From: a virus
Strand: one strand, 5' to 3'
IMG/VR virus record: IMGVR_UViG_3300033149_007232
Span: 1-41,667 of that record
Length of the DNA stretch: 41,667 bases
Shown: positions 9,979 to 35,130 of the stretch, piece after piece
Layout of the letters: each line of letters opens with the position of its first letter
Position numbering within the stretch: the first letter of the stretch is position 1
Program-made: the position numbers and the translations under genes
Notes under the pieces: generated by a model
The model's input: only the letters and a program-made list of their open reading frames with translations
What the model was told of the DNA's origin: nothing
Database searches by the model: none

Positions 9979-9998
9979 TTTACCCAAATTTGGGTAAA
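9979..9998. promoter_or_regulatory. Perfect 20-bp palindrome, putative operator, copy 1
   Basis: TTTACCCAAATTTGGGTAAA is a perfect 20-base palindrome in the gap between the polymerase stop (10005) and the ribosome binding site of the SSB candidate. Its 14-base core ACCCAAATTTGGGT recurs intact at 34996-35009, and half of it at 24091-24104. On the RNA it would make a nearly loopless hairpin just before the Shine-Dalgarno, so either DNA-level or translational control is possible. Confidence 0.55.
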
Positions 9999-10004
9999 CC
10001 AGGT

Positions 10005-12737
10005 TCACTTGCCAAACTGCTCTGCTAACTCTGTCGAAAGTCCTGCTCGAACCAGCTCTTCCGTAGAAGGCGCTTCGCCCCATCGGAAGTAAAGTGAAAC
10101 CTCGTAATCGAGAGAGACACCGTATCCTGGGATGGGTATCTTTAGCGCGCTCGGAAGGATTTTCTCGAGCAAGGTTTCGACCTCATTTATCGGGCAGTAC
10201 AAAGGAATGTTATCATGCTGATCAGGACAAATCTTGTAGTGCATTTTGTGCTCGTCGCGTAGCTGTTGCAGCCGCGACATAGCCAAGCCTGTCAGGTCTG
10301 CCACAGTACTTTGTATTGCGAAATTGACGGCCTGTCTTTCTTGCCCAGCTTGTATTGATTGCACGGGCGAAGAATACAAGTGTTTGACACGAGACCAAGG
10401 AGTCACCACGTAGCCCGGGCTCTTAACTGCAGCCATCTGTCTGTGTTTATAGCGAACGCATTTAGGGAATGCTTCATCAAGATACTGCAGCCACTTGCGA
10501 CAATCTTCGGGTGTACAGTCTACGCCCGCCTCGATCATCTTCATATGCAGGCTTTCTGGTGTGATAAGATAGGCCCAACCGAAGTTACACGTTTTAGCAT
10601 GATCCCGCAAATGCCCATAGCCATTGGACTTGCACCAATCCTTGGGATTTCCAAACTCAGGCTTGTATGGGAGATCATACATCCGTATCGCCTGTTCTGC
10701 ATGGAGATCCCTAGACGGATCATGCAAAGCGGCAAAAAGCTCGTCGTCCTCTGCAAGCAGTGACAGAACAACAAGCTCAGCCTGTGCATAATCGGCACAA
10801 ACAAGCAAATATCCGGGCGGAGATACGACGATAGAGCGAATAGAAGGAATGGATGGGTCGCCCAGAATTTCTCGAATACGCTCCATCCGACGTCCTGTGA
10901 GATTCTGCAAGTTTGGATTCTTCGTAGAACGTCGGCCAGTCTTCAACGTGCTCCGTATTTCTGGCCTGACGTAGCCGTCCCTATCTATATACGAGGCAAA
11001 GGCACGAGGCTCAGAGATGATTCGTCCGTCCTCTGCGCGCTTAAACGGTTTAAGAAGCTTCGAGACGGGCTGATAGATGATCCGATAATCTGCTAGAAGC
11101 TTTGGAATAGGATGCTTATTGCGCAAAGCGGCCAACACAAACTTATCGGTAGAAGGTGATTCATCGCTGTCGTCGCCAAACCAAGGACTATCAGATGTAG
11201 ACTTTACAGGTGTCAATTTCAGGCGTTTGAACAGCAGCTCTTTTACTTGAGGATAGCTGCGCGGATTGAAGTTCTCCATGCCAACCTTTACAGCCTCTTC
11301 CCGCAACTGCTGCTCAAGCTCCTCACATACACGTCTAAGCACCTGCGAAAGCATCTCCAACCTTTCGAGGTCGATCTTGAAACCGACTTCTTCCGCCTCC
11401 GCAAGCGCCCGCTCTTGCGGGAGAACGATGGTCTGTAGGAGCTTAAACTGCTGCTCCGAGAAGAGCTTCTGCTGAGCGAGCATAACGCGCAGCGTTCCGT
11501 CCGCATCTCCGAGCGCATAAGGAAGCAAGATTTCGTCGGGAATGCCCTTAAACGCATTCTGCTCGATATCGAGCTTATGCTGTTCGACATATTCTTGTTT
11601 TTCGACGTCATAGCGCTGCATATCGGTAAAGCGAATTATCATATCCTCCAGCTTGTGGCTCCTATTCTCCTCAAGAATATGATCCGCAAGCATCGTGTCC
11701 CAAACGACGCGATCGAGAATGCTGAAGCCCAGCTTGGCCTTGATCCAATGATCGTCGGAGCGAATATTTTGCCCGACGATCATCATTCCAGGTCGCAGCA
11801 GAAACTCCTTCAGTTTCTCCGCCGCAACCTCAACAGAGGGCTCAAACGCCGGCTTGAGCTCAGTATCATGCAGAACTATGACTGCCGCATGTCTGGGAGC
11901 CCACGCGAACTGAATGCATCGAAGCTGTCCATCAGGCAGCCTCCCGCCCCATTCGCAATCCAGAGAGACGAGATTGACATCTTCAAGCTCCTCAAACAGC
12001 GCATCAAGCTGAGCTTCGTTTCTTATGATACGCCAATCGCGTTTTTCTTTGGGCCTATGCTCGTTGAAGACCAAACGTTTGAAATTGGCAAGATCCCGCC
12101 TCAGACCCAGCTCCATAAAGCGGGAGTGGGAATAAACTTCGGCGGGATGAACCGTAGCCATTATTTTGCTCGTCACGCCGTAAGGGAATTCATGCTCAAT
12201 AATCGTTCCTCGAACATCGTCGAGTTTCCGACCCAGCACAAATCTCACAGCATCAGAACCCAAAAGCAGAATGTACTTCGGCTTGACGAGCCTTATTTCC
12301 TGATGCAGGAGCCAAGCACACTGTTTGAATTCTTTCACCGCCACTCTTGAACTTGCAGCTGGGAAACGTAGGATATTCGTGACATACATTGTGGCTGGAT
12401 CCAGCCCTTCTTCCCTGCAAAGACGTTCGAAGAATTGGCTGGTCTCGCCGACGAACAGCCGCTGCTGCGCAATCTCCAATCTGCCCGGATGCTTTCCGAT
12501 CACCATAATGTCGCAAGGTCTCGGCCCAAGCGTATCGCCTTTCCATAGGTGCCCGCATAGGAAAGGCACCACTCGACGCTCTCCCTTCTTGACATCCGGC
12601 AACACAATATCGAATGGCTGAACAAGAAGCGAGGTAGCCAGCACTTTTACCTCACAGCCGCAGGCTTCCGCAGTCTCGACTATTGCTGAGCCTATAGGGA
12701 ACCCAGCAATTTCATCCTCAAACTCATCAAGCGTCAT
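10005..12737 (-). CDS. polA: Uracil-DNA-glycosylase-like / DNA polymerase I fusion
   Basis: A 910-residue replicative DNA polymerase of family A with an extra N-terminal domain. Residues about 60-225 are of the UDG superfamily: GKHPGRLE (81-88), RLFVGETSQFF, TNILRFP and HPAE (197-200). The 3'-5' exonuclease is intact: D260/E262 in SLDCEWGG, VGQNIRSDD (about 328), and Y407...D411. Polymerase motif A is CADYAQAEL (D649, E654). The O-helix is R711...K715...F719...Y723. The motif B-side block is RQAVNFAIQSTVADL, and motif C is QHDN (D842). No 5' nuclease is present. Odd points: the third residue of the usual HDE is Asn, and the UDG motif GExPG reads GKHPG. AGGAGG precedes the ATG. Confidence 0.93.
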   Translation of the reverse strand: MTLDEFEDEIAGFPIGSAIVETAEACGCEVKVLATSLLVQPFDIVLPDVKKGERRVVPFLCGHLWKGDTLGPRPCDIMVIGKHPGRLEIAQQRLFVGETSQFFERLCREEGLDPATMYVTNILRFPAASSRVAVKEFKQCAWLLHQEIRLVKPKYILLLGSDAVRFVLGRKLDDVRGTIIEHEFPYGVTSKIMATVHPAEVYSHSRFMELGLRRDLANFKRLVFNEHRPKEKRDWRIIRNEAQLDALFEELEDVNLVSLDCEWGGRLPDGQLRCIQFAWAPRHAAVIVLHDTELKPAFEPSVEVAAEKLKEFLLRPGMMIVGQNIRSDDHWIKAKLGFSILDRVVWDTMLADHILEENRSHKLEDMIIRFTDMQRYDVEKQEYVEQHKLDIEQNAFKGIPDEILLPYALGDADGTLRVMLAQQKLFSEQQFKLLQTIVLPQERALAEAEEVGFKIDLERLEMLSQVLRRVCEELEQQLREEAVKVGMENFNPRSYPQVKELLFKRLKLTPVKSTSDSPWFGDDSDESPSTDKFVLAALRNKHPIPKLLADYRIIYQPVSKLLKPFKRAEDGRIISEPRAFASYIDRDGYVRPEIRSTLKTGRRSTKNPNLQNLTGRRMERIREILGDPSIPSIRSIVVSPPGYLLVCADYAQAELVVLSLLAEDDELFAALHDPSRDLHAEQAIRMYDLPYKPEFGNPKDWCKSNGYGHLRDHAKTCNFGWAYLITPESLHMKMIEAGVDCTPEDCRKWLQYLDEAFPKCVRYKHRQMAAVKSPGYVVTPWSRVKHLYSSPVQSIQAGQERQAVNFAIQSTVADLTGLAMSRLQQLRDEHKMHYKICPDQHDNIPLYCPINEVETLLEKILPSALKIPIPGYGVSLDYEVSLYFRWGEAPSTEELVRAGLSTELAEQFGK

Positions 12738-20060: not shown

Positions 20061-21044
20061 TTATACGGCGAGAACTTCAAGAGCCCGCTGCTTGAACTGC
20101 TTTGCAGACCCAAACCAAATCGAGTGCACCCGGTTCTCCTCTTTACTCGCGTAGCGGCTCTTCCGAGTACGCCTCTCGTGATCGCACCACTCTATGATTG
20201 CATTCCAAAGCCCATAAGCCGTGCCACGAACGCCCGGCTTGTCCAGTCCTCGTCCTCCTCCATCAAAGAGCTGCAAGATCGAGGACTGAGCATTCTGGCG
20301 TATTGTCTGGCCTCGTTTCGAGTCGGCTTCCGGGAAGAGCTCATCGAGAACTGCTTTTGCCCCCTGAGTGGTAAGGTCCCTAGAGCTGAGAACTGATGCG
20401 AGCTCATTATACCTTTGATTATAAACATCCGACAACTGGAGGACCTTTCGTGCTTGATTGATTTTCGTGTAAATGTCGCCAGTATGAACAATCCTTACTG
20501 ACTGAACGGCCTGCTCGAGAGCGAGATTGACTGTATTCATACAGACGACTCTGATGAGAGTATTCGCCACGATACAGGATTTGGTCCCATCATGGCTCGA
20601 AGTTGCAAGGATATATGGCACGTGTGGGTCATCTTTCACAGGCTCTATTGGCTCAGGACGCTGCGCCATGAGCCAAATGATTTTACCTCCCCTGAGCTCT
20701 CCGGCCGTTCTGTAGATTGCCTGACGCGAACCGATGAGCGTGTCCATGAAATCAAACAGCTGCCAGTTCTGGATCGGACGATAGCCCACGCCAACCACGC
20801 CAAGAGGAGCATGCGAGTCAGCACGCACAACGGCGCGCTTGTCCGTGATAGCAACATGGTCGTCTTCGTGCACTGCTTCGAGCGACCACAGCTCGACTTC
20901 CCAATTGAGCCTAGCTGTTTCGAGAGCTTCTTTCGCCGTGAGCGCCTTATCCACGGCTGTGCCCAATCCATGCCAAGGAGCTCCATCTTCCTTGACATAA
21001 AACATCTTTGCGCCTTTTTCGTCAAACGAAAGCTCGTGCGGCAT
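20061..21044 (-). CDS. DUF932 family protein
   Basis: I take ATG 21044 as the start because AAGGAGGAAGCA lies directly upstream. The longer reading frame begins further up inside the hairpin region. The 327-residue product matches the DUF932 (phage/plasmid-like protein) pattern: the front part reads APWHGLGTAVDKALTAKEAL, followed by AVVRADSHAPLGVVGVGYRPI, then ILATSSHDGTKSCIVANTLIRVVCMNT. The family occurs in phages, plasmids and some defence islands, and its biochemical role is not established. The gene heads the recombination cluster, directly before SbcD, so a role in DNA replication or repair is plausible. Confidence 0.85.
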   Translation of the reverse strand: MPHELSFDEKGAKMFYVKEDGAPWHGLGTAVDKALTAKEALETARLNWEVELWSLEAVHEDDHVAITDKRAVVRADSHAPLGVVGVGYRPIQNWQLFDFMDTLIGSRQAIYRTAGELRGGKIIWLMAQRPEPIEPVKDDPHVPYILATSSHDGTKSCIVANTLIRVVCMNTVNLALEQAVQSVRIVHTGDIYTKINQARKVLQLSDVYNQRYNELASVLSSRDLTTQGAKAVLDELFPEADSKRGQTIRQNAQSSILQLFDGGGRGLDKPGVRGTAYGLWNAIIEWCDHERRTRKSRYASKEENRVHSIWFGSAKQFKQRALEVLAV

Positions 21045-21074
21045 TGCTTCCTCCTTGTTGATAGCAAACATAGA

Positions 21075-21098
21075 GGGAGGGGCCTTGCGGCCCCTCCC
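21075..21098 (-). terminator. Strong GC-rich hairpin upstream of DUF932
   Basis: GGGAGGGGCC (21075-21084) and GGCCCCTCCC (21089-21098) form a perfect 10-base-pair stem with a 4-base loop. It sits between the stop at 21140 and the DUF932 start at 21044. On the minus strand it is followed by TCTATGTTTGC, so there is no proper U-tract. A weak or factor-assisted terminator, an mRNA-stability element or an attenuator are all possible. Confidence 0.55.
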
Positions 21099-21139
21099 CC
21101 AACCTATCAAGTAGGCCTGGTATTTTTTGAGTTCACGAT

Positions 21140-21886
21140 TTATCCCAGGTCCCACTTGATGAAGCGTTGCTGACCGACCACTGAGCCGTCAGCAACTTCC
21201 TGAAGGCGCGGCACATACGTGAGCCGCGCGAAGATTGGGACATCTGGCGGAACTCGGATGGCCCAGAATGGGGCCATCCAAAGTTCATTCTCTCCGAACG
21301 TCTTCTTAGCTCCTGCAAGGTAGAACTTCCACAGACGCTCGGTCAGTTGCTCATGCCCAGCGCCTAGGAAGTCCCGAATGGTACTAAGAACGGTTGCGTC
21401 TTCTTTAGCCTCTTCAGGAATTTCAGGTGCTTCCACCTTCTCGAAGAGATCGTCCACGTCCGTCCTCAGGCCTGTTGGCATGCGGTACGGACTTTTCATG
21501 ACAAAGAATTCCGGCCACCGCGGCTCGTTGACGGGCTGCGGCTCCTCTTCCTCCAGTATCTGACGAATCTCATCCTGCCAGATACCGCAGCTCGTCGATG
21601 GCGTCTCCAGGACAAACGAGCGTTGGAGACGCTCGGCCCTTTCCCCGGGTGCGACAGTGCGTTTATTTACTATCGCGCCCCGACGCGGGCCGTTCTTGAT
21701 CTCCAGGAACTCATTTGAGCCTATTATGAGCTCCTGAGATCCAGGGTTCCTCACAATCGGATAGAGACGCACAAGATGCTTGTCGCCTCGCTCCTGGATC
21801 GTGAAGACCCGAACATGCGGGGCTCCGAAAGCACGAGAGCCTTTGACGGCGCCCCATTCCGACCGAGGAAGAATGCCCATAAGCAT
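21140..21886 (-). CDS. Hypothetical protein
   Basis: A 248-residue protein with an AAGGAGGAGGTG leader before the ATG. The first 110 residues are mixed alpha/beta (HVRVFTIQERGDKHLVRLYP). The middle is Glu/Pro-rich (EEEEPQPVNEPRWPEF; EKVEAPEIPEEAKED), and the end is beta-rich with Trp/Pro (ELWMAPFWAIRVPPDVPIF). The sequence SPYRMPTGLRTDVDDL suggests a conserved surface. I recognise no family. It lies between the small membrane protein and DUF932 at the front of the replication operon. In phages with this order such genes are often early host-takeover or DNA-processing functions. Confidence 0.7.
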   Translation of the reverse strand: MLMGILPRSEWGAVKGSRAFGAPHVRVFTIQERGDKHLVRLYPIVRNPGSQELIIGSNEFLEIKNGPRRGAIVNKRTVAPGERAERLQRSFVLETPSTSCGIWQDEIRQILEEEEPQPVNEPRWPEFFVMKSPYRMPTGLRTDVDDLFEKVEAPEIPEEAKEDATVLSTIRDFLGAGHEQLTERLWKFYLAGAKKTFGENELWMAPFWAIRVPPDVPIFARLTYVPRLQEVADGSVVGQQRFIKWDLG

Positions 21887-23889: not shown

Positions 23890-23902
23890 TTTCGACATAG
23901 CA

Positions 23903-23932
23903 AAACAAAAAGAAGGGTACTAACGTACCCTT
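23903..23932 (-). terminator. Intrinsic terminator facing the 3' end of TerL
   Basis: An 8-base-pair stem, AAGGGTAC / GTACCCTT (23913-23920 and 23925-23932), with a 4-base loop. On the minus strand it is followed by CTTTTTGTTTTG. The U-tract exists only on the minus-strand side, so it stops transcription coming from the right before it enters TerL antisense. Confidence 0.75.
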
Positions 23933-23943
23933 CCTTACGAGCT

Positions 23944-23997
23944 GGTCTTCTTCTCTTTCCTCCAAAGTATGGGAAGGAGAAGAAGACCAATTTTTTT
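23944..23997 (+). terminator. Intrinsic terminator of the terminase gene
   Basis: GGTCTTCTTCTC (23944-23955) pairs with GAGAAGAAGACC (23977-23988), extended inward by further pairs (CTTTCC-type with GGGAAG). It is followed on the plus strand by AATTTTTTT. It lies 55 bases after the TerL stop. Read from the minus strand, the same hairpin is the central stem of the candidate RNA at 23903-24019. Confidence 0.85.
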
Positions 23998-24017
23998 ATC
24001 CCAGAGACAAAAACCTA

Positions 24018-24054
24018 CTCACTTTACTATAAGCTCTTTTCAGGCAAAATTTAG
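24018..24054 (-). promoter_or_regulatory. Promoter-like element, copy 1 (CTAAAT-17-TATAGT)
   Basis: On the minus strand, CTAAAT (24054-24049) is followed after exactly 17 bases by TATAGT (24031-24026), continuing as TATAGTAAAGTGAG. The same two boxes, the same spacing and the same downstream AAAGTGAG occur at 32101-32137. TATAGT is a fair -10 box, but CTAAAT is not a sigma70 -35. The CTAAAT box is partly inside the terminator stem of the preceding operon. Confidence 0.55.
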
Positions 24055-24082
24055 CCCCTCTCCTAGAGGTTGAGAGGGGCTA
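24050..24082 (-). terminator. Terminator after the 26164-24105 operon
   Basis: TAGCCCCTCTC (24052-24062) and GAGAGGGGCTA (24072-24082) form a perfect 11-base-pair stem with a 9-base loop. It starts 23 bases after the stop codon of the gene ending at 24105. On the minus strand the run after the stem is AATTTTGCC, a short U-tract. Confidence 0.75.
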
Positions 24083-24090
24083 GCTTTATT

Positions 24091-24104
24091 CAAATTTGGG
24101 TAAA
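24091..24104. promoter_or_regulatory. Half-copy of the ACCCAAATTTGGGT palindrome
   Basis: CAAATTTGGGTAAA is identical to the right part of the 20-base palindrome at 9979-9998. The left arm is lost (ATT instead of ACC). It directly abuts the stop codon at 24105. Confidence 0.4.
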
Positions 24105-24410
24105 CTATACGCTTGTGTCCACAATCGTATAGTCCTTTCTAAACTCGCCATCTTTGGCTTTATAGGTCTCAGCAGCGCGCGCCTCGATTGCGGGACTGCG
24201 GAATTTCAGCTCCGCTCGTGCCTCCTGCAACAACCTATTGAGAACAGGCAAACTGCCCAAATCGCTGCGTTTGTTGGAGATCACAACCGCCCTGGCCTTT
24301 TTAGCCGAACCAGGGAGCTCTTCGAGCTCGATCTTCGGATAGACGGGCTCGACCTTTACCACCTTCCGCGCTGCCTTTTTAGAACGCTTCTTAGGGCTCG
24401 CTTTGGCCAT
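24105..24410 (-). CDS. Basic hypothetical protein
   Basis: A 101-residue protein with a strongly basic, Lys/Ala-rich front (KASPKKRSKKAARKVVKVEP) and a mixed remainder (ARAVVISNKRSDLGSLPVL). GGAGTAAGAG precedes the ATG. The front resembles a histone-tail-like or DNA-condensing segment, so an internal virion or DNA-binding role is possible. No family recognised. It is the last gene of the operon that starts at the 26178-26227 promoter and is followed by a terminator. Confidence 0.7.
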   Translation of the reverse strand: MAKASPKKRSKKAARKVVKVEPVYPKIELEELPGSAKKARAVVISNKRSDLGSLPVLNRLLQEARAELKFRSPAIEARAAETYKAKDGEFRKDYTIVDTSV

Positions 24411-25096: not shown

Positions 25097-26164
25097 TTAC
25101 CTTCCCTTTATAAGGAAGGCCCAACGCTCGAGCCGCGGAGCTGATTTTGGCAAAAGCTGTCTAAGCAGTCCTACCTGCTGCGCTGGCAATTTTTCAGCAG
25201 CTTTGAGGAACCTCTCTTCCGTAACGATCAGCCCTTCGCCGAGCGCCTCCTTCAGAAATCTTTCTCCCAATGCCGCGGCCACCTTATCAAGCTCGACACC
25301 CTTTAGCTGGTCCTTATACAAGGGCTTTCCATCCTGAAGTAGGACGCTGCCCTCCAGAATATCTGCCGCCTCTTTGAAAAGATGAGAACAGAGCTCCTCT
25401 TCGGGAGTATTGAGGCCTTTCCCATAATATCTGGTCAGGCCAAGCGTCTCATCCAGCATGGCCAGGACCTGAAGATGTTGCTGATGGGCCTCTTTGGAAA
25501 ATGGCTCACGTGCAATCTGAGCTGCATATTCATATGCGCCCTGGCGAATTTCAGGATCGTCCGCCATCAGGCTTCTCGTCAAAATAGCTTTTGCGGCCTG
25601 TTCTGGAGGGCAGACACCCAATCCAGCTGCTTTGAGGAAATAGTCTTCATTGTCGAGATGGATAGACTGCTCTTTGGCGGATTCCAGCAAGGCGCAGGCG
25701 GCCTTCCTACGCCAAATATACGGGATTCTGTGGCGATACCTATAAAGGCTCTCAGCTGCTTGGTGTATCTGTTGAGGAGTATCCAGCGGATAGAGCTGAA
25801 TCCTCTCACCTCGCCACTCTTCATCCAATGCGAACTTTCTCGGCTTCGCTGGCGATTCCTGCGCCCTGCGTTGCATGTCCTGGTAGTCTATACCGTAGAT
25901 CTGTGCGACCTTCTTCAAACGCGGCTCAATGATGCCACGAAGATCCTTAGGAAGAGCTTCTCTGTTTTGCAAGAAATAGGCTATACTCCACCAAGCGGCT
26001 GCTTTGTTGTGAACCGGATAGAGCTTGCCCGGGCCTGCAAAAGCAGACTGAGGCAACGCTTCGTAATCCTCCCGCTCTGCCTGTTTCACATAATTCGGAG
26101 CAGCAAATTTTCTGAGCAGTGTCTCTCGCAAGCTTCCGCCTTTATCGGTCGTTGGATCGATCAT
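25097..26164 (-). CDS. Hypothetical virion-associated protein
   Basis: A 355-residue, largely helical protein. Residues 37-51 (LPQSAFAGPGKLYPV) followed by HNKAAAWWSIAYFLQN match a short motif often found in phage head-associated proteins (proteins of the type 'LPDSxFA...PIHD..H...A'). That motif alone does not define a function. The rest is helical repeats such as EQAAKAILTRSLMADDPEIR. It is the first gene after a good sigma70-type promoter with an operator-like palindrome. TAGGAGAG precedes the ATG. Its size would allow a capsid-module role, but no HK97-fold signature is visible. Confidence 0.65.
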   Translation of the reverse strand: MIDPTTDKGGSLRETLLRKFAAPNYVKQAEREDYEALPQSAFAGPGKLYPVHNKAAAWWSIAYFLQNREALPKDLRGIIEPRLKKVAQIYGIDYQDMQRRAQESPAKPRKFALDEEWRGERIQLYPLDTPQQIHQAAESLYRYRHRIPYIWRRKAACALLESAKEQSIHLDNEDYFLKAAGLGVCPPEQAAKAILTRSLMADDPEIRQGAYEYAAQIAREPFSKEAHQQHLQVLAMLDETLGLTRYYGKGLNTPEEELCSHLFKEAADILEGSVLLQDGKPLYKDQLKGVELDKVAAALGERFLKEALGEGLIVTEERFLKAAEKLPAQQVGLLRQLLPKSAPRLERWAFLIKGR

Positions 26165-26177
26165 ACCAACTCTCCTA

Positions 26178-26227
26178 GAGTAAAGCTTTACTCAATTCAT
26201 TATATCCGCGCTTGTTACGTGGCTCAA
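26178..26227 (-). promoter_or_regulatory. Sigma70-type promoter with palindromic operator
   Basis: On the minus strand, TTGAGC (26227-26222) is followed after exactly 17 bases by TATAAT (26204-26199). A perfect 16-base palindrome, GAGTAAAGCTTTACTC (26193-26178), covers the predicted start point and ends just before the ribosome binding site AGGAG of the gene starting at 26164. A repressor bound there would block the promoter. The -35 box overlaps the last codons of the upstream gene. Confidence 0.8.
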
Positions 26228-28149: not shown

Positions 28150-31086
28150 TCAAGGACAAGGCGCTGCGGTGGCCCAGGTTATCCAATCACTTTCGTCGTA
28201 GGCCGTAACGACTTTGATCTTCTTGGTTTTAACCTGCAAATAGGCGTATCCAGCCGCTGTATCGTGGAAGTATCGAATATCTGTGATGATAGTTTGTTCG
28301 TGGCTGGCTGTTGGGAGCGCATGAAAGCCTTTGGTGCTTGAGGCGTTTGTCCCGTAGTATTTATCTGGACCAGGATCTGCTTCATCTCCAACAAGCTGCA
28401 AGCTATCGACAGGTGCCGAAGCTATCTCTATGGAATTAGTTGTCTTTACCTTAGTTTGATATTGTTCATCTGCGCCGTCGTTTGCAACGCTAAACTCGAT
28501 AGCGCCTGCCGGATTTCCCCCATCCTGGTACTCGACAAGCTTGTCTGAAAGCCATTTAGCAGTTTCGTCGTCAGAGCTCACCCGCACGCGCCACTGTGCA
28601 GGAATGAACATGTTATCTTTATCAACAGTTGTGGCATCCAGCTCCACGTAATACGAATGGACTATAGACGGATTCTCGTCATCTCCAGCAGGGCCGATGG
28701 CTGCGATTGAAAGATAATCGCTGCCGCCTGTTTGGTAAATGTAGGCCCCAGCAGTTTCTACCAAGCCCGGCAGCGAAACTTGCAAGGTGTCCTTGGATGC
28801 CGAAGTGATCTCCCCAACCTTCACCCACGATGAAGTATAGGCTCTCCAGATATATACCTCATAATCGTGAGCCCCTCCATTTTCGCCATAGCCTTTTATA
28901 GTTAGCGTTGCGCTCGAGACCTCTCCAGACCAGGAAGAAACATTGAAATCAAACCTATGACCAGCATACGTGAGGGAGGTGGCAGTGTAGTCTATGCTAT
29001 TCTCATCATCAGCAGCAATTGTCGCCAACTGCCCGGCGTCTAAAGCGCTCCCGGTTTCAAAATCTAATCCGACTGCAGGAACAGTGCTGCTCTCTCCTTC
29101 CATGCCTGCAGCTGGAGTTTGCGAATAATTGTGAGTCGTGCGAGCCTCCCCCAAAAATCCAGAATCACCGGTAGCTACATACACGCCAACGGGACGCTTA
29201 CAATTGATCTGCGTGCCCTCTGTACCATCTGGTGCAAGATAGACGCAGGGATAGAAGACATCATCCGTCGTCATCTCTACTTTGGCACGGAGCTGTGGCG
29301 GCTGGCCATCCGAAGAGAGAAGGCTAATATAGCTCGTGGCGTCATGGGGAATCGAAATATCGACAGGAGCCTCTAAATATTCACCGTCTGTCGTCACCAC
29401 GTGTACTTTGATAGCGCAACGGCCCCAAATAGCCAGGTCGCTTACGTCAATAATTGCGTGCCCACTGGAGCCGCCCGAGATGGCTACTTCTTTGGCGAGA
29501 GACCACACGCCGCTTGTGTTTGTGTAGATCTCAATTTTGCTCGGTGCTGAGGCAAAGGAATAATCCTGTCTATTGCAAAAGATAAAACCCGGCTGGAAAT
29601 TCTCGGCAAAGATGGTGCCAGAGCGGCCATAAAGGGCAAGAGAGTCTTCAGAGACAAGCTGCAGATTATCGAATGCGCTAAGAGCTACGCGCTCAGCACC
29701 GAGCGCAATATCGGTGCCCACACAAGAAATCGTAGATGCATAAATCTCGATACCGCTGGAGCCGATTACAAGCTTGCTGTCGCCGACCTGAAGGGTAGTT
29801 GTTCCGTCCTCCGATATTTTGAATAAGCTGTCAAGCTCTCGAAGAATCTTGTAAAGCCTTATAGTATCCCTATGATCAGAACCTGAGATAGTGGCGGATT
29901 CGGTTGCTTCCGACTCAAATTCAGGAGCCGCCCCTCTATCGAGCAAAGCATGATGATCAATGGTGAGCTCGTACTGGGCGTTCTTGAATATGCTCTCATC
30001 CCGGGCAATCATTCCGAAGTAGTTGCCCTCTATGGAGTCCGGGATGACGGTGATTGTAGTCTGAAGCTTGCGAGTATCGTAGCCTGATCCTGTAGGTGTC
30101 TGCCCAAAGCCTGGAGATTCTGATGTATAGTCACCCATCTCCGAGCTTGATGGGTCGATGACGCCGGCAGGATAGGTCGGATCAACATTCGCTGGGATCT
30201 GGATGCGCGTAACGGGCGCTTGCGGATTAATCCGCCCGAACTCGATACTTTTAGCGCTGTGAAGCTGATAAGAACCGTCGAATGCCTTGCGAGCCCGAAG
30301 CACGAGAGCCCCATCCGGCATGGTGATCCCAGATGTTTGCTCCGGTGGCTGCAGCTGCACAAGGGTTAGCTCTAGATCTCCAGCATAGCCCCTAAGACGG
30401 AGATATTGTGGGATGGGCTTGGTCGAAGGATAGCTCTGCATGGGCGAAAGAGCACCTTCTTTCGCCCTCCATAGGTAAGGAACTATGAGACAAAATTCGC
30501 TATATTCGCCTTTGTCGGAGATCCTTTCATCAACACAGCCGCCGGCGAAGAAGGTCATATTGAAGCCTATTATCTTCAGAAGGCTGTCGATAACGTGGGC
30601 TTCAACGCCTGCCTTTGCGCCAGCCTTAAGGACAGCCTGGGCAACATTGGCCCAAAGCTGCGTCCCGCTTGGCCAGGCCATACCAAAGCTGTCGCCGGCG
30701 ACAAATTTCTCCGTCCCCTCGTGCTGTTTAATATAGTCCGAATCGTTGATGTCGTCTCGAGCCTGGACGAGAGGAGGATAGCTCTGATCGCGAATGTCCT
30801 TGTCCGTGATAGAGCTGCTTGGATAGCGAAAGACAAACGGGAGTGCGCAGACAATAATGAAGGGCTGATTATAGCCGTCTGCGCCTGGAGGGATATACAA
30901 CAGAACTTTCGTGCCTGCTTGGAGCGCCATCATGCTCTGCGCTCCTGCAGGCGGCTGCCCTATCGGCGTTCCAAGAACAGCTGTTACAACGCCCGCAATA
31001 TGCGGGACTTTGACTTGATAGACATTGTTCTCAGGGACGCCGTCAACTACTACGCCTATTTGAAGCGTTCCCGCCAGCGGATGCAT
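28150..31086 (-). CDS. Large tail-tip/baseplate spike protein
   Basis: A 978-residue protein. The first about 85 residues look like the OB-fold of tail-spike proteins (GVVVDGVPENNVYQVKVPHI; GTKVLLYIPPGADGYNQPFI). The middle (250-490) is beta-rich with a LQVGDSKLVIGSSGIEIYAS stretch of the kind found in beta-helical spikes. Residues about 683-820 form a discrete module that also makes up most of the 182-residue protein at 39018-39566. The C-terminus (about 925-978) ends with TKKIKVVTAYDESDWITW, a pattern common at the ends of phage tail proteins. It probably forms the puncturing tip and carries receptor-binding modules. It overlaps the lipoprotein gene by 44 bases. Confidence 0.75.
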   Translation of the reverse strand: MHPLAGTLQIGVVVDGVPENNVYQVKVPHIAGVVTAVLGTPIGQPPAGAQSMMALQAGTKVLLYIPPGADGYNQPFIIVCALPFVFRYPSSSITDKDIRDQSYPPLVQARDDINDSDYIKQHEGTEKFVAGDSFGMAWPSGTQLWANVAQAVLKAGAKAGVEAHVIDSLLKIIGFNMTFFAGGCVDERISDKGEYSEFCLIVPYLWRAKEGALSPMQSYPSTKPIPQYLRLRGYAGDLELTLVQLQPPEQTSGITMPDGALVLRARKAFDGSYQLHSAKSIEFGRINPQAPVTRIQIPANVDPTYPAGVIDPSSSEMGDYTSESPGFGQTPTGSGYDTRKLQTTITVIPDSIEGNYFGMIARDESIFKNAQYELTIDHHALLDRGAAPEFESEATESATISGSDHRDTIRLYKILRELDSLFKISEDGTTTLQVGDSKLVIGSSGIEIYASTISCVGTDIALGAERVALSAFDNLQLVSEDSLALYGRSGTIFAENFQPGFIFCNRQDYSFASAPSKIEIYTNTSGVWSLAKEVAISGGSSGHAIIDVSDLAIWGRCAIKVHVVTTDGEYLEAPVDISIPHDATSYISLLSSDGQPPQLRAKVEMTTDDVFYPCVYLAPDGTEGTQINCKRPVGVYVATGDSGFLGEARTTHNYSQTPAAGMEGESSTVPAVGLDFETGSALDAGQLATIAADDENSIDYTATSLTYAGHRFDFNVSSWSGEVSSATLTIKGYGENGGAHDYEVYIWRAYTSSWVKVGEITSASKDTLQVSLPGLVETAGAYIYQTGGSDYLSIAAIGPAGDDENPSIVHSYYVELDATTVDKDNMFIPAQWRVRVSSDDETAKWLSDKLVEYQDGGNPAGAIEFSVANDGADEQYQTKVKTTNSIEIASAPVDSLQLVGDEADPGPDKYYGTNASSTKGFHALPTASHEQTIITDIRYFHDTAAGYAYLQVKTKKIKVVTAYDESDWITWATAAPCP

Positions 31087-31960
31087 CTATCGATTCCACT
31101 CCCATAAGCATTTTAAGTCTGCTTACTGCGCTCTTCACAGAAGGGGCCATAACGGCTTCTACAGTGCTGTCAAACGCATCCCTGCAAGGCTTGGACAGAG
31201 CCTTTCTGCCTTGCTGAATAGCCACAACAGCTGAGCGCATCTGAAGGCTGACGCGCGCGAGTTCCACAACGCAAATCCCGAGCGCCGCTAGGCCTACGCC
31301 TACAGCTCCGAATACAATATACCACAAATAGCTGTAGATTACGAAACCGATAAGCACAGCGCTGCCTATCGCAAAAAGAGCCGAAGATAGCAACTTGCTG
31401 TAGAAGAGACGCGTATAGAGCGCAAGACCGAAGAAAGCTAAAGCCACTAGAGCCCCCGCGCCGTATGTAGCAAGATCAGGAATCGAAGTGTCTTTAGCTT
31501 TGCTTTTGATATAGGTTTCGGGAGGCTTCTTTAGAGACCGAGCTGCTTCGCGTAAAGTGCCCGCAAGTTCCTGCACATATGTTCTGTCGTCCGGCGCAAT
31601 CGGCTGCTTAGGGGGCCCTTCTGCCTCAACTACAGCTTTAAGTAGTAAAAGAGCATCATGCGCCTTCGCCCTCGCCTTCACCAGCATGCCTTTTAGCTTT
31701 TTGAGATCTTCTGGCGAGGAAGCCTGTGCTGAAGTTTCAAGCTGGCTTACTTCTGCTACGGCCTCTTCCAGCAGAAGCTCTGTCTGTTCGACTAGCCTTT
31801 CAGCGCAAGAGACCGCCGCTTTGCGCGATTCTTCATACTGCAAGTAGGCTTGCATCTCCGCTATTGATGGAGCCTCTTTTTTTGTCTGCGTACGAAACAG
31901 ACTGCAACCGCTTACCGATAGTACAAGCAGGCAGCTCAATAAAGCTACTAACTTTCGCAT
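31043..31960 (-). CDS. Lipoprotein with coiled coil and membrane helices
   Basis: A 305-residue protein with a bacterial lipoprotein signal: a basic start, a hydrophobic run and lipobox V-S-G-C19. Residues 30-150 are charged and helical, probably a coiled coil. About three membrane segments follow (around 164-182, 190-208 and 211-232), then a basic 70-residue tail. A lipid-anchored N-terminus, periplasmic coil and C-terminal membrane segments recall unimolecular spanins, which fuse the two membranes of Gram-negative hosts at lysis. Three membrane segments and the long tail are unusual for those. It lies behind the promoter/RNA block at 32012-32137, and GGAGGGCAAGAG precedes the ATG. Confidence 0.75.
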   Translation of the reverse strand: MRKLVALLSCLLVLSVSGCSLFRTQTKKEAPSIAEMQAYLQYEESRKAAVSCAERLVEQTELLLEEAVAEVSQLETSAQASSPEDLKKLKGMLVKARAKAHDALLLLKAVVEAEGPPKQPIAPDDRTYVQELAGTLREAARSLKKPPETYIKSKAKDTSIPDLATYGAGALVALAFFGLALYTRLFYSKLLSSALFAIGSAVLIGFVIYSYLWYIVFGAVGVGLAALGICVVELARVSLQMRSAVVAIQQGRKALSKPCRDAFDSTVEAVMAPSVKSAVSRLKMLMGVESIDASAGGNASNRRSS

Positions 31961-31990
31961 TCTCTTGCCCTCCTTCCTCCTCTAAGTATA

Positions 31991-32011
31991 GCTTTCAGTC
32001 TAGCTGAAAGC
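31991..32011 (-). promoter_or_regulatory. Hairpin before the lipoprotein start
   Basis: GCTTTCAG / CTGAAAGC, 8 base pairs with a 5-base loop. It lies immediately after the T-tract of the structured RNA at 32012-32103 and ahead of the lipoprotein ribosome binding site. It would shape the 5' leader of any read-through transcript. Confidence 0.5.
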
Positions 32012-32103
32012 AAAAAAAAAATCCCCCGGATCTGATCCCCCACCAAATTGATGGCCGGGTGGGCCTTTGGGGCGCCTCCAGGGGATGAGACGAATTCCGT
32101 CTC
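32012..32103 (-). ncRNA. Candidate structured RNA or regulatory leader, about 92 nt
   Basis: On the minus strand the block starts with hairpin GAGACG-GAATT-CGTCTC (32103-32087). ATCCCCTGGA (32086-32077) then pairs with TCCGGGGGAT (32030-32021), 10 pairs with one wobble. Between these arms CCAAA pairs with TTTGG, and GGCC pairs with GGCC around CACCC. Ten T residues follow (32021-32012). This is a multi-stem fold closed by an intrinsic terminator, directly behind promoter-like element copy 2. It could be a free small RNA or a leader that controls the lipoprotein gene by attenuation. Confidence 0.5.
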
Positions 32104-32137
32104 ACTTTACTATAAGCGATTTTCGACAAAAATTTAG
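32101..32137 (-). promoter_or_regulatory. Promoter-like element, copy 2 (CTAAAT-17-TATAGT)
   Basis: On the minus strand CTAAAT (32137-32132), 17 bases, then TATAGT (32114-32109), continuing as TATAGTAAAGTGAG. Boxes, spacing and the downstream sequence are the same as at 24018-24054, while most of the spacer differs. It lies between the sigma factor stop (32153) and the lipoprotein start (31960). Confidence 0.65.
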
Positions 32138-32152
32138 CTTCAAGCGTAGGCC

Positions 32153-32905
32153 TTATTTCACACCTTTTTGCAGGCGCTTCACAATACGTGTAATGCGCTG
32201 GCTAACAGCACCTGGAGAAATATGCAGACGCTTCGCAATCTCAGCCACAGGAAGCTGCTCGGAACCGTGGGCTCCAATTCGCCAATCCAGAATCTTCTGG
32301 TCTATAGGGTCGAGGCTTCTGTACACGGCCTCAAACCACCAAGAGCTTTCAACTTCCCGCGCTGGCTGAGCAAACTCTTCAGGCGCTTTCTCCCGAAGAA
32401 CGCTTTCCGGTACGCCGAGATGCACAGCTTGTCTGATTTTTTCTATCCTCTTTAGCGATAGCCCGGTCTCGTCTGCTAGCTCCAAAGTGCTGGGTGGACG
32501 GCCAAGCTTTTGCACAAGACGCTCTTCGGCCGTCTTGAGATTCTGCAAATCCGCCCAGAGCATTTTTGGAACTTTAAACTCTTGAGCCCGCTCGTGGACT
32601 ACAGCTGTAAGTGGCGCGAGCTGATAGCGAAGATGAGTAGCAAGCGAACCTTTGGAAGGATCATAGGTCTCAAATGCTTTTACTGCGAGTCGTTTTGCCT
32701 CAAGCGCCACAACAGGATCATCCTTGGAACCAGCATAAGTTCGTATTGCTCGACGTAGAAGAGGTGCGCTTGCATCGAGCAAAACGGAGAGTGTTTCGCT
32801 CGAAGGCCGCTCTTTCCAATGCTGCCAAAGCTGCTGCAGATCAACTGCGCGCCCATATTTCGGCGAAAGCGAGGTTGCGAGACTATCATTAGATTCTACG
32901 ACCAT
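32153..32905 (-). CDS. Phage RNA polymerase sigma factor
   Basis: A 250-residue sigma70-family protein. The region-2-like block has LAVKAFETYDPSKGSLATHL. Region 3 reads ERLVQKLGRPPSTLELADET followed by GLSLKRIEKIRQA. Region 4 has SLDPIDQKILDWRIG and a helix-turn-helix LPVAEIAKRLHISPGAVSQR. It would redirect the host RNA polymerase to phage promoters, probably late. It sits in the middle of the tail operon, overlapping the hub gene by 10 bases. The next downstream element is promoter-like copy 2. The region-2 sequence is divergent, so the promoter specificity may be unusual, which would fit the non-consensus CTAAAT box. Confidence 0.88.
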   Translation of the reverse strand: MVVESNDSLATSLSPKYGRAVDLQQLWQHWKERPSSETLSVLLDASAPLLRRAIRTYAGSKDDPVVALEAKRLAVKAFETYDPSKGSLATHLRYQLAPLTAVVHERAQEFKVPKMLWADLQNLKTAEERLVQKLGRPPSTLELADETGLSLKRIEKIRQAVHLGVPESVLREKAPEEFAQPAREVESSWWFEAVYRSLDPIDQKILDWRIGAHGSEQLPVAEIAKRLHISPGAVSQRITRIVKRLQKGVK

Positions 32906-34974: not shown

Positions 34975-35130
34975 TCAACCCTCTTGCATAGCTTTACCCA
35001 AATTTGGGTTTTCTACTGTCTGCCCTAGCTTGGGAGCGTTAAAGACGAGTTTTCTTTCAATCACTGGCTTAGATTTCTTCTCCGGCAAAGGCCCAAAGTA
35101 CAAAAGCTCTAACCAAGCTACTTGCTTCAT
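34975..35130 (-). CDS. Small hypothetical protein (51 aa)
   Basis: A short gene found by reading the gap before the next start. It begins ATG 35130, overlapping the upstream stop as ATGA, and ends TGA at 34977-34975, one base before the next gene's GTG. Its 51 residues (start MKQVAWLELLYFGPLPEKKS) show no known motif. The palindrome ACCCAAATTTGGGT lies inside it, encoding NPNLG. The tight fit to both neighbours supports it as a real gene, perhaps a short tail-assembly product. Confidence 0.6.
   Translation of the reverse strand: MKQVAWLELLYFGPLPEKKSKPVIERKLVFNAPKLGQTVENPNLGKAMQEG
34996..35009. promoter_or_regulatory. Palindrome ACCCAAATTTGGGT, copy 2
   Basis: A perfect 14-base palindrome, identical to the core of the 20-base palindrome at 9979-9998. 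It lies in the last codons of the 51-residue gene, 23 bases before the GTG start of the tail gene at 34973. Together with the half-copy at 24091-24104, it suggests a dispersed binding site. Confidence 0.5.

Follow-up and report, generated by a model that had tools for sequence, protein, structure and literature searches.

What does the folded stretch between the sigma factor gene and the lipoprotein-like gene of this phage do: does it yield an RNA with a function of its own, does it form a leader that controls the gene behind it, or does it simply mark the place where one operon ends and another begins? The stretch (hereafter the block) covers positions 32103-32012 on the minus strand of the window, the 41,667-nt piece of viral DNA that was analyzed as a whole, and its fold lies on the same strand that codes for the neighboring genes. 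An earlier note, made from the letters alone, had proposed either a free small RNA of about 90 nt or a leader that ends transcription early.

The fold and its T tract

The multi-stem structure claimed behind the sigma factor gene is real. On the minus strand, the block folds with a minimum free energy (MFE) of -45.0 kcal/mol, against a mean of -32.2 (sd 3.8) for 200 dinucleotide shuffles, none of which was as good (0/200; z -3.40); the plus strand is unremarkable (-34.8 kcal/mol, z -1.34). The best fold comprises a separate 5' hairpin followed by a branched hairpin, in which a 10-pair stem closes over two side-by-side inner hairpins (Table 1), and pair probabilities for the 5' hairpin and the closing stem are 0.83-1.0. 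Both of these stems had been proposed correctly from the sequence, whereas the inner CCAAA/TTTGG and GGCC/GGCC stems proposed with them did not hold up, since forcing them gives -40.7 kcal/mol, 4.3 kcal/mol worse than the best fold. The ten T residues said to end the block do so, following the closing stem directly, and this T10 is the longest A/T homopolymer within the whole window. A stable GC-rich hairpin and a U tract directly after its stem, the features of an intrinsic terminator, are both present; a simple terminator scan did not report the T10 site because the hairpin is branched.

A protein-coding reading of the block was dropped, as it contains no ATG and no leader ORF beginning with one, in agreement with the earlier remark that it has no useful coding frame. 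Rfam covariance models gave 0 matches to the block at gathering thresholds and only chance matches far below gathering scores, which rules out a known riboswitch, sRNA or leader family and fits the earlier failure to recognize a riboswitch class.

It is very improbable that a stable fold arose here by chance or through GC content, with no RNA role at all. The stability itself is not unique, in that 4 of 904 equally long minus-strand windows match or exceed it (placing the block in the top 0.5%), but the departure from the shuffles, the intergenic position and the promoter-like repeat exactly at the start all weigh against this view. Chance is also argued against because T10 falls exactly at the stem end and the 5' hairpin falls at the start expected from the repeat's second copy. 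The block is instead probably a branched (Y-shaped) intrinsic terminator at an operon boundary, with the lipoprotein operon restarting just downstream.

Table 1. Features of the block, its surroundings and comparable sites in the window
Feature	Position	Strand	Remark
Phage sigma factor gene, 250 aa, sigma-70 regions 3 and 4	32153..32905	-	Upstream of block
Promoter-like repeat copy 2, TAAATTTT-N11-GCTTATAGTAAAGTGAG	32087..32138	-	52-nt repeat; putative promoter
5' hairpin GAGACG-GAATT-CGTCTC, 6 bp	32087..32103	-	MFE and pair probabilities; starts within 1 nt of start expected from copy 2
Branched (three-way) hairpin	32021..32086	-	MFE and pair probabilities
10-pair closing stem	32086-32077 with 32030-32021	-	MFE and pair probabilities
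Inner hairpins of branched hairpin	32076-32061 and 32059-32038	-	MFE and pair probabilities
T10 tract	32012..32021	-	Sequence; expected RNA end (intrinsic terminator tail)
Inverted repeat GCTTTCAG-CTAGA-CTGAAAGC	31991..32011	-	Directly after T10; putative function
Purine-rich Shine-Dalgarno region AGGAGGAAGGAGGG	31968..31981	-	Before lipoprotein ATG (31960)
Lipoprotein-like ORF, 305 aa, signal peptide with lipobox LSVSGC	31043..31960	-	First gene after boundary; lipobox read from sequence
Promoter-like repeat copy 1	24004..24055	-	52-nt repeat
Second folded stretch, behind copy 1	23909..24020	-	Ends in intrinsic terminator 23936-23909; convergent with terminase gene
Second window copy of clade element: GGGAGGGGCC-GCAA-GGCCCCTCCC hairpin, then TGTTT-GCTATCAA	21058..21098	-	Shortly before ATG at ~21043

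The promoter-like repeat and the RNAs it might produce

The promoter-like sequence reported directly ahead of the fold was confirmed as one copy of a repeat: copy 2 is 79% identical over 52 nt to 24055-24004 (copy 1), including 17 consecutive identical bases (GCTTATAGTAAAGTGAG), and its downstream end overlaps the block's 5' hairpin. The expected start was taken from the position of a TATAGT in copy 2. There is no TTGACA-like -35 box at 16-18 nt spacing from this TATAGT, as a sigma-70 promoter would have; by eye, the repeat resembles the two-box arrangement TAAA-N15-GC seen with alternative sigma factors, a likeness offered as a lead only. Among other viral contigs, 0 carry an exact copy of the 17-mer, and the repeat was not found in the relatives G001, G002, G003 and G005. 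A 23-nt promoter match in G005 was discarded as a chance match inside a coding region.

Behind copy 1, the stretch 23905-24025 folds at -51.9 kcal/mol (z -6.88), and its terminator comes just short of where the terminase gene, which runs in the opposite direction, ends. The hairpin at 23943-23989 has a T7 next to it on the other strand and, with that T7, probably ends the terminase transcript. The region 23890-24104 behind the terminase gene holds copy 1 together with a strong plus-strand hairpin and T tract that face a minus-strand terminator.

A second way to read the block, then, is as a dedicated trans-acting small RNA of ~90 nt, transcribed from a copy 2 promoter to U10 and acting on RNAs or a protein, with copy 1 giving rise to a second RNA of ~110 nt. 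Hfq-type RNAs are expected to have a U tail of the length of U10. The absence of an ATG from the block, the position of its 5' hairpin relative to copy 2 and the presence of a strongly folded, terminator-ended stretch behind both copies would suit such an RNA, and the earlier description of a structured, terminated segment of ~90 nt behind a promoter-like repeat is supported. Moreover, promoters used by phage sigma factors typically show good conservation and a low copy number, as this repeat does, and have been found through pairwise alignment of intergenic regions (PMC4331800). However, the two RNAs would share no common structure, the strong hairpin behind copy 1 may have no purpose beyond the terminase transcript, no homologue occurs in any relative, and the repeat, being off sigma-70 spacing, is a putative promoter. 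A small RNA of this kind is rather unlikely. The more elaborate proposal, that a duplicated sigma-specific promoter drives a lineage-specific regulatory pair of small RNAs, both discrete and ended by terminators and placed at the two ends of a late operon, is unlikely.

A third conceivable role is that of an attenuator, a leader whose transcription would begin at copy 2 and whose conditional termination would control the lipoprotein operon. The order promoter, terminator, gene is the one that an attenuator would have, and two GGGGGAT repeats can compete for one 5' ATCCCC arm, so that a fold lacking the terminator stem can be drawn as an alternative. This non-terminator fold is, however, 14.7 kcal/mol weaker, and because of that gap the two folds do not form a balanced switch, which would have mutually exclusive structures of comparable stability. 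A switch is made unlikely by the same gap together with the lack of a leader peptide with an ATG, and the candidate start sites downstream of T10, as well as the Rfam result for riboswitch and leader families, also speak against it. Overall, an attenuator is decidedly unlikely. Of the two roles first suggested for the block, the free small RNA is possible, and the attenuator loses ground to the energy gap, the missing leader ORF and the downstream starts.

Other features of the window were recorded in passing. A near-perfect 20-bp palindrome, TTTACCCAAATTTGGGTAAA, occurs at 9979-9999, 24085-24105 and 34993-35013, in gene-boundary or gene-end regions, with 0 occurrences expected by chance, and probably serves as a binding site for a protein, such as an operator. 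At 26165-26223 (minus strand), a promoter-like TTGAGC-17-TATAAT site followed by the palindrome GAGTAAAGCTTTACTC precedes an ORF starting at 26164; the arrangement has the look of a promoter of host type that carries an operator. The minus-strand gene at 10005-12737 encodes a family A DNA polymerase whose N terminus carries a uracil-DNA-glycosylase-superfamily domain.

Relatives of the phage and a recurrent element that includes a T run

The sigma factor, portal and terminase proteins place the contig in a clade with Salmonella phage Arash, Vibrio phages D69, D148 and D181, and many IMG/VR contigs. Because members of this clade are mostly 100-210 kb, the 41.7-kb window is probably a genome fragment. 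The best sigma factor match, L010, is 39% identical, and nothing closer turned up; a blastn search with the region against phages gave no match, and neither the terminase nor a 978-aa protein, each used singly to scan viral contigs, led to a relative. In nearly all relatives with a readable boundary, the gene after the sigma factor begins within ~10 nt; in a few, the two genes stand 23-78 nt apart. No homologue of the block was found in 14 related records beyond the chance match in coding sequence, nor behind the sigma factor gene wherever the boundary was readable. By these comparisons, the block is lineage-specific, since nearly all relatives with a readable boundary have no gap behind the sigma factor gene that could hold it.

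What the relatives do carry is a recurrent element, on the late-gene strand just upstream of genes, that consists of a GC-rich hairpin, a T run and (A)GCTATCAG. In the four best-covered relatives, GCTATCAG occurs 10 times after TTTN, compared with 3 for the next among the 2520 distinct orderings of its letters (mean 0.19), and it is also the commonest of all 8-mers in that position. Hairpins are stronger before GCTATCAG sites than before other T runs, with medians of -23.2 versus -12.5 kcal/mol (Mann-Whitney p 9e-5; preceding 50 bases folded in three of the four best-covered genomes). The sites lie 12-69 nt ahead of a same-strand ORF in G001 and G003, and one such element also occurs in L026, the contig that carries the portal relative of best E-value. 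In most relatives, the hairpin is simple, not branched, and there is almost none at the G003 copy. The AGCTATCAG form of the element, with its hairpin and T run, recurs before genes in G001, G002, G003 and L026. The G002 element was considered as a positional orthologue of the one at the block and dropped; a protein of ~150 aa, not the lipoprotein, precedes the relatives' homologue of the 978-aa protein. We infer from its sequence that the element would serve as a phage late promoter.

The block likewise has a hairpin and a T run, followed not by an exact AGCTATCAG but by GCTTTCAG, the first 8 bases of the inverted repeat that comes directly after T10, which has one mismatch to GCTATCAG and is without the A. 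The chance of a match as good as GCTTTCAG at one given position is 0.0015; window-wide, finding two one-mismatch matches to the motif behind T-rich stretches is not significant, as 13.6% of permutations do as well. The window does contain one clear member of the element, with a simple hairpin, at 21098-21058 (Table 1), and its position suggests a true start at the ATG at ~21043 (MPHELSF...) for the gene listed as 20061-21155. A further candidate start site behind T10 is a weak sigma-70-like TTGCTT-17-TATACT at 32013-31985 (minus strand), whose spacer is spanned by the inverted repeat.

The lipoprotein-like ORF behind these sites has no Pfam or PHROG match and shows weak, sub-threshold NCBIfam similarity to RcsF, so that its proposed role as a possible lysis gene is unsupported. 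The ORF is also unlike a typical short spanin.

The probable operon boundary and its known counterparts

In the terminator reading of the block, polymerase arriving from the tail/sigma operon, or started at copy 2, would transcribe the minus strand through the 10-pair stem and U10 and stop at ~32012, thereby ending the sigma-gene transcripts. The lipoprotein operon (31960 downwards) would then start at a site of its own just behind T10, either the clade element, here in the form GCTTTCAG, or the weak sigma-70-like TTGCTT-17-TATACT. If copy 2 works as a promoter, transcription from it would also release a discrete ~90-nt RNA that begins with the 5' hairpin and carries a U10 tail, plausibly as a by-product or else as a small RNA. 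Two observations count against a boundary: a promoter-like repeat upstream of the terminator would be superfluous at a plain one, and the window's motif is inexact and without the A.

If the boundary reading is true, the block is mainly a regulatory landmark, marking the point at which one operon stops and the next takes over in a clade of large, sigma-encoding phages that has received little study, and it would bring with it two testable promoter motifs, GCTTATAGTAAAGTGAG in the present genome and TTTAGCTATCAG in the relatives. If the ~90-nt RNA turned out to be a discrete product, phage small RNAs would gain one more member.

The block would be an element of an already-known kind, a phage intergenic terminator or short terminated RNA. 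Like phage intrinsic (Rho-independent) terminators, it has a GC-rich stem directly before a U tract and lies between two operons of the same direction; it differs from them in its three-way hairpin, its separate 5' hairpin, its unusually long U10 and the promoter-like repeat upstream. The putative ~90-nt RNA would resemble lambda OOP RNA and PreS, which are likewise short, terminated and phage-encoded (reviewed in PMC12197685), OOP being transcribed from its own promoter. Finally, the repeat is similar to the sigma promoters of phage 7-11 and phage phiEco32 in being short, well conserved, low in copy and intergenic in a phage with its own sigma factor, whereas the sequences of the putative promoters described here, GCTTATAGTAAAGTGAG and TTTAGCTATCAG, are other than the TGATGT/TAATGTATA of those phages (PMC4331800).
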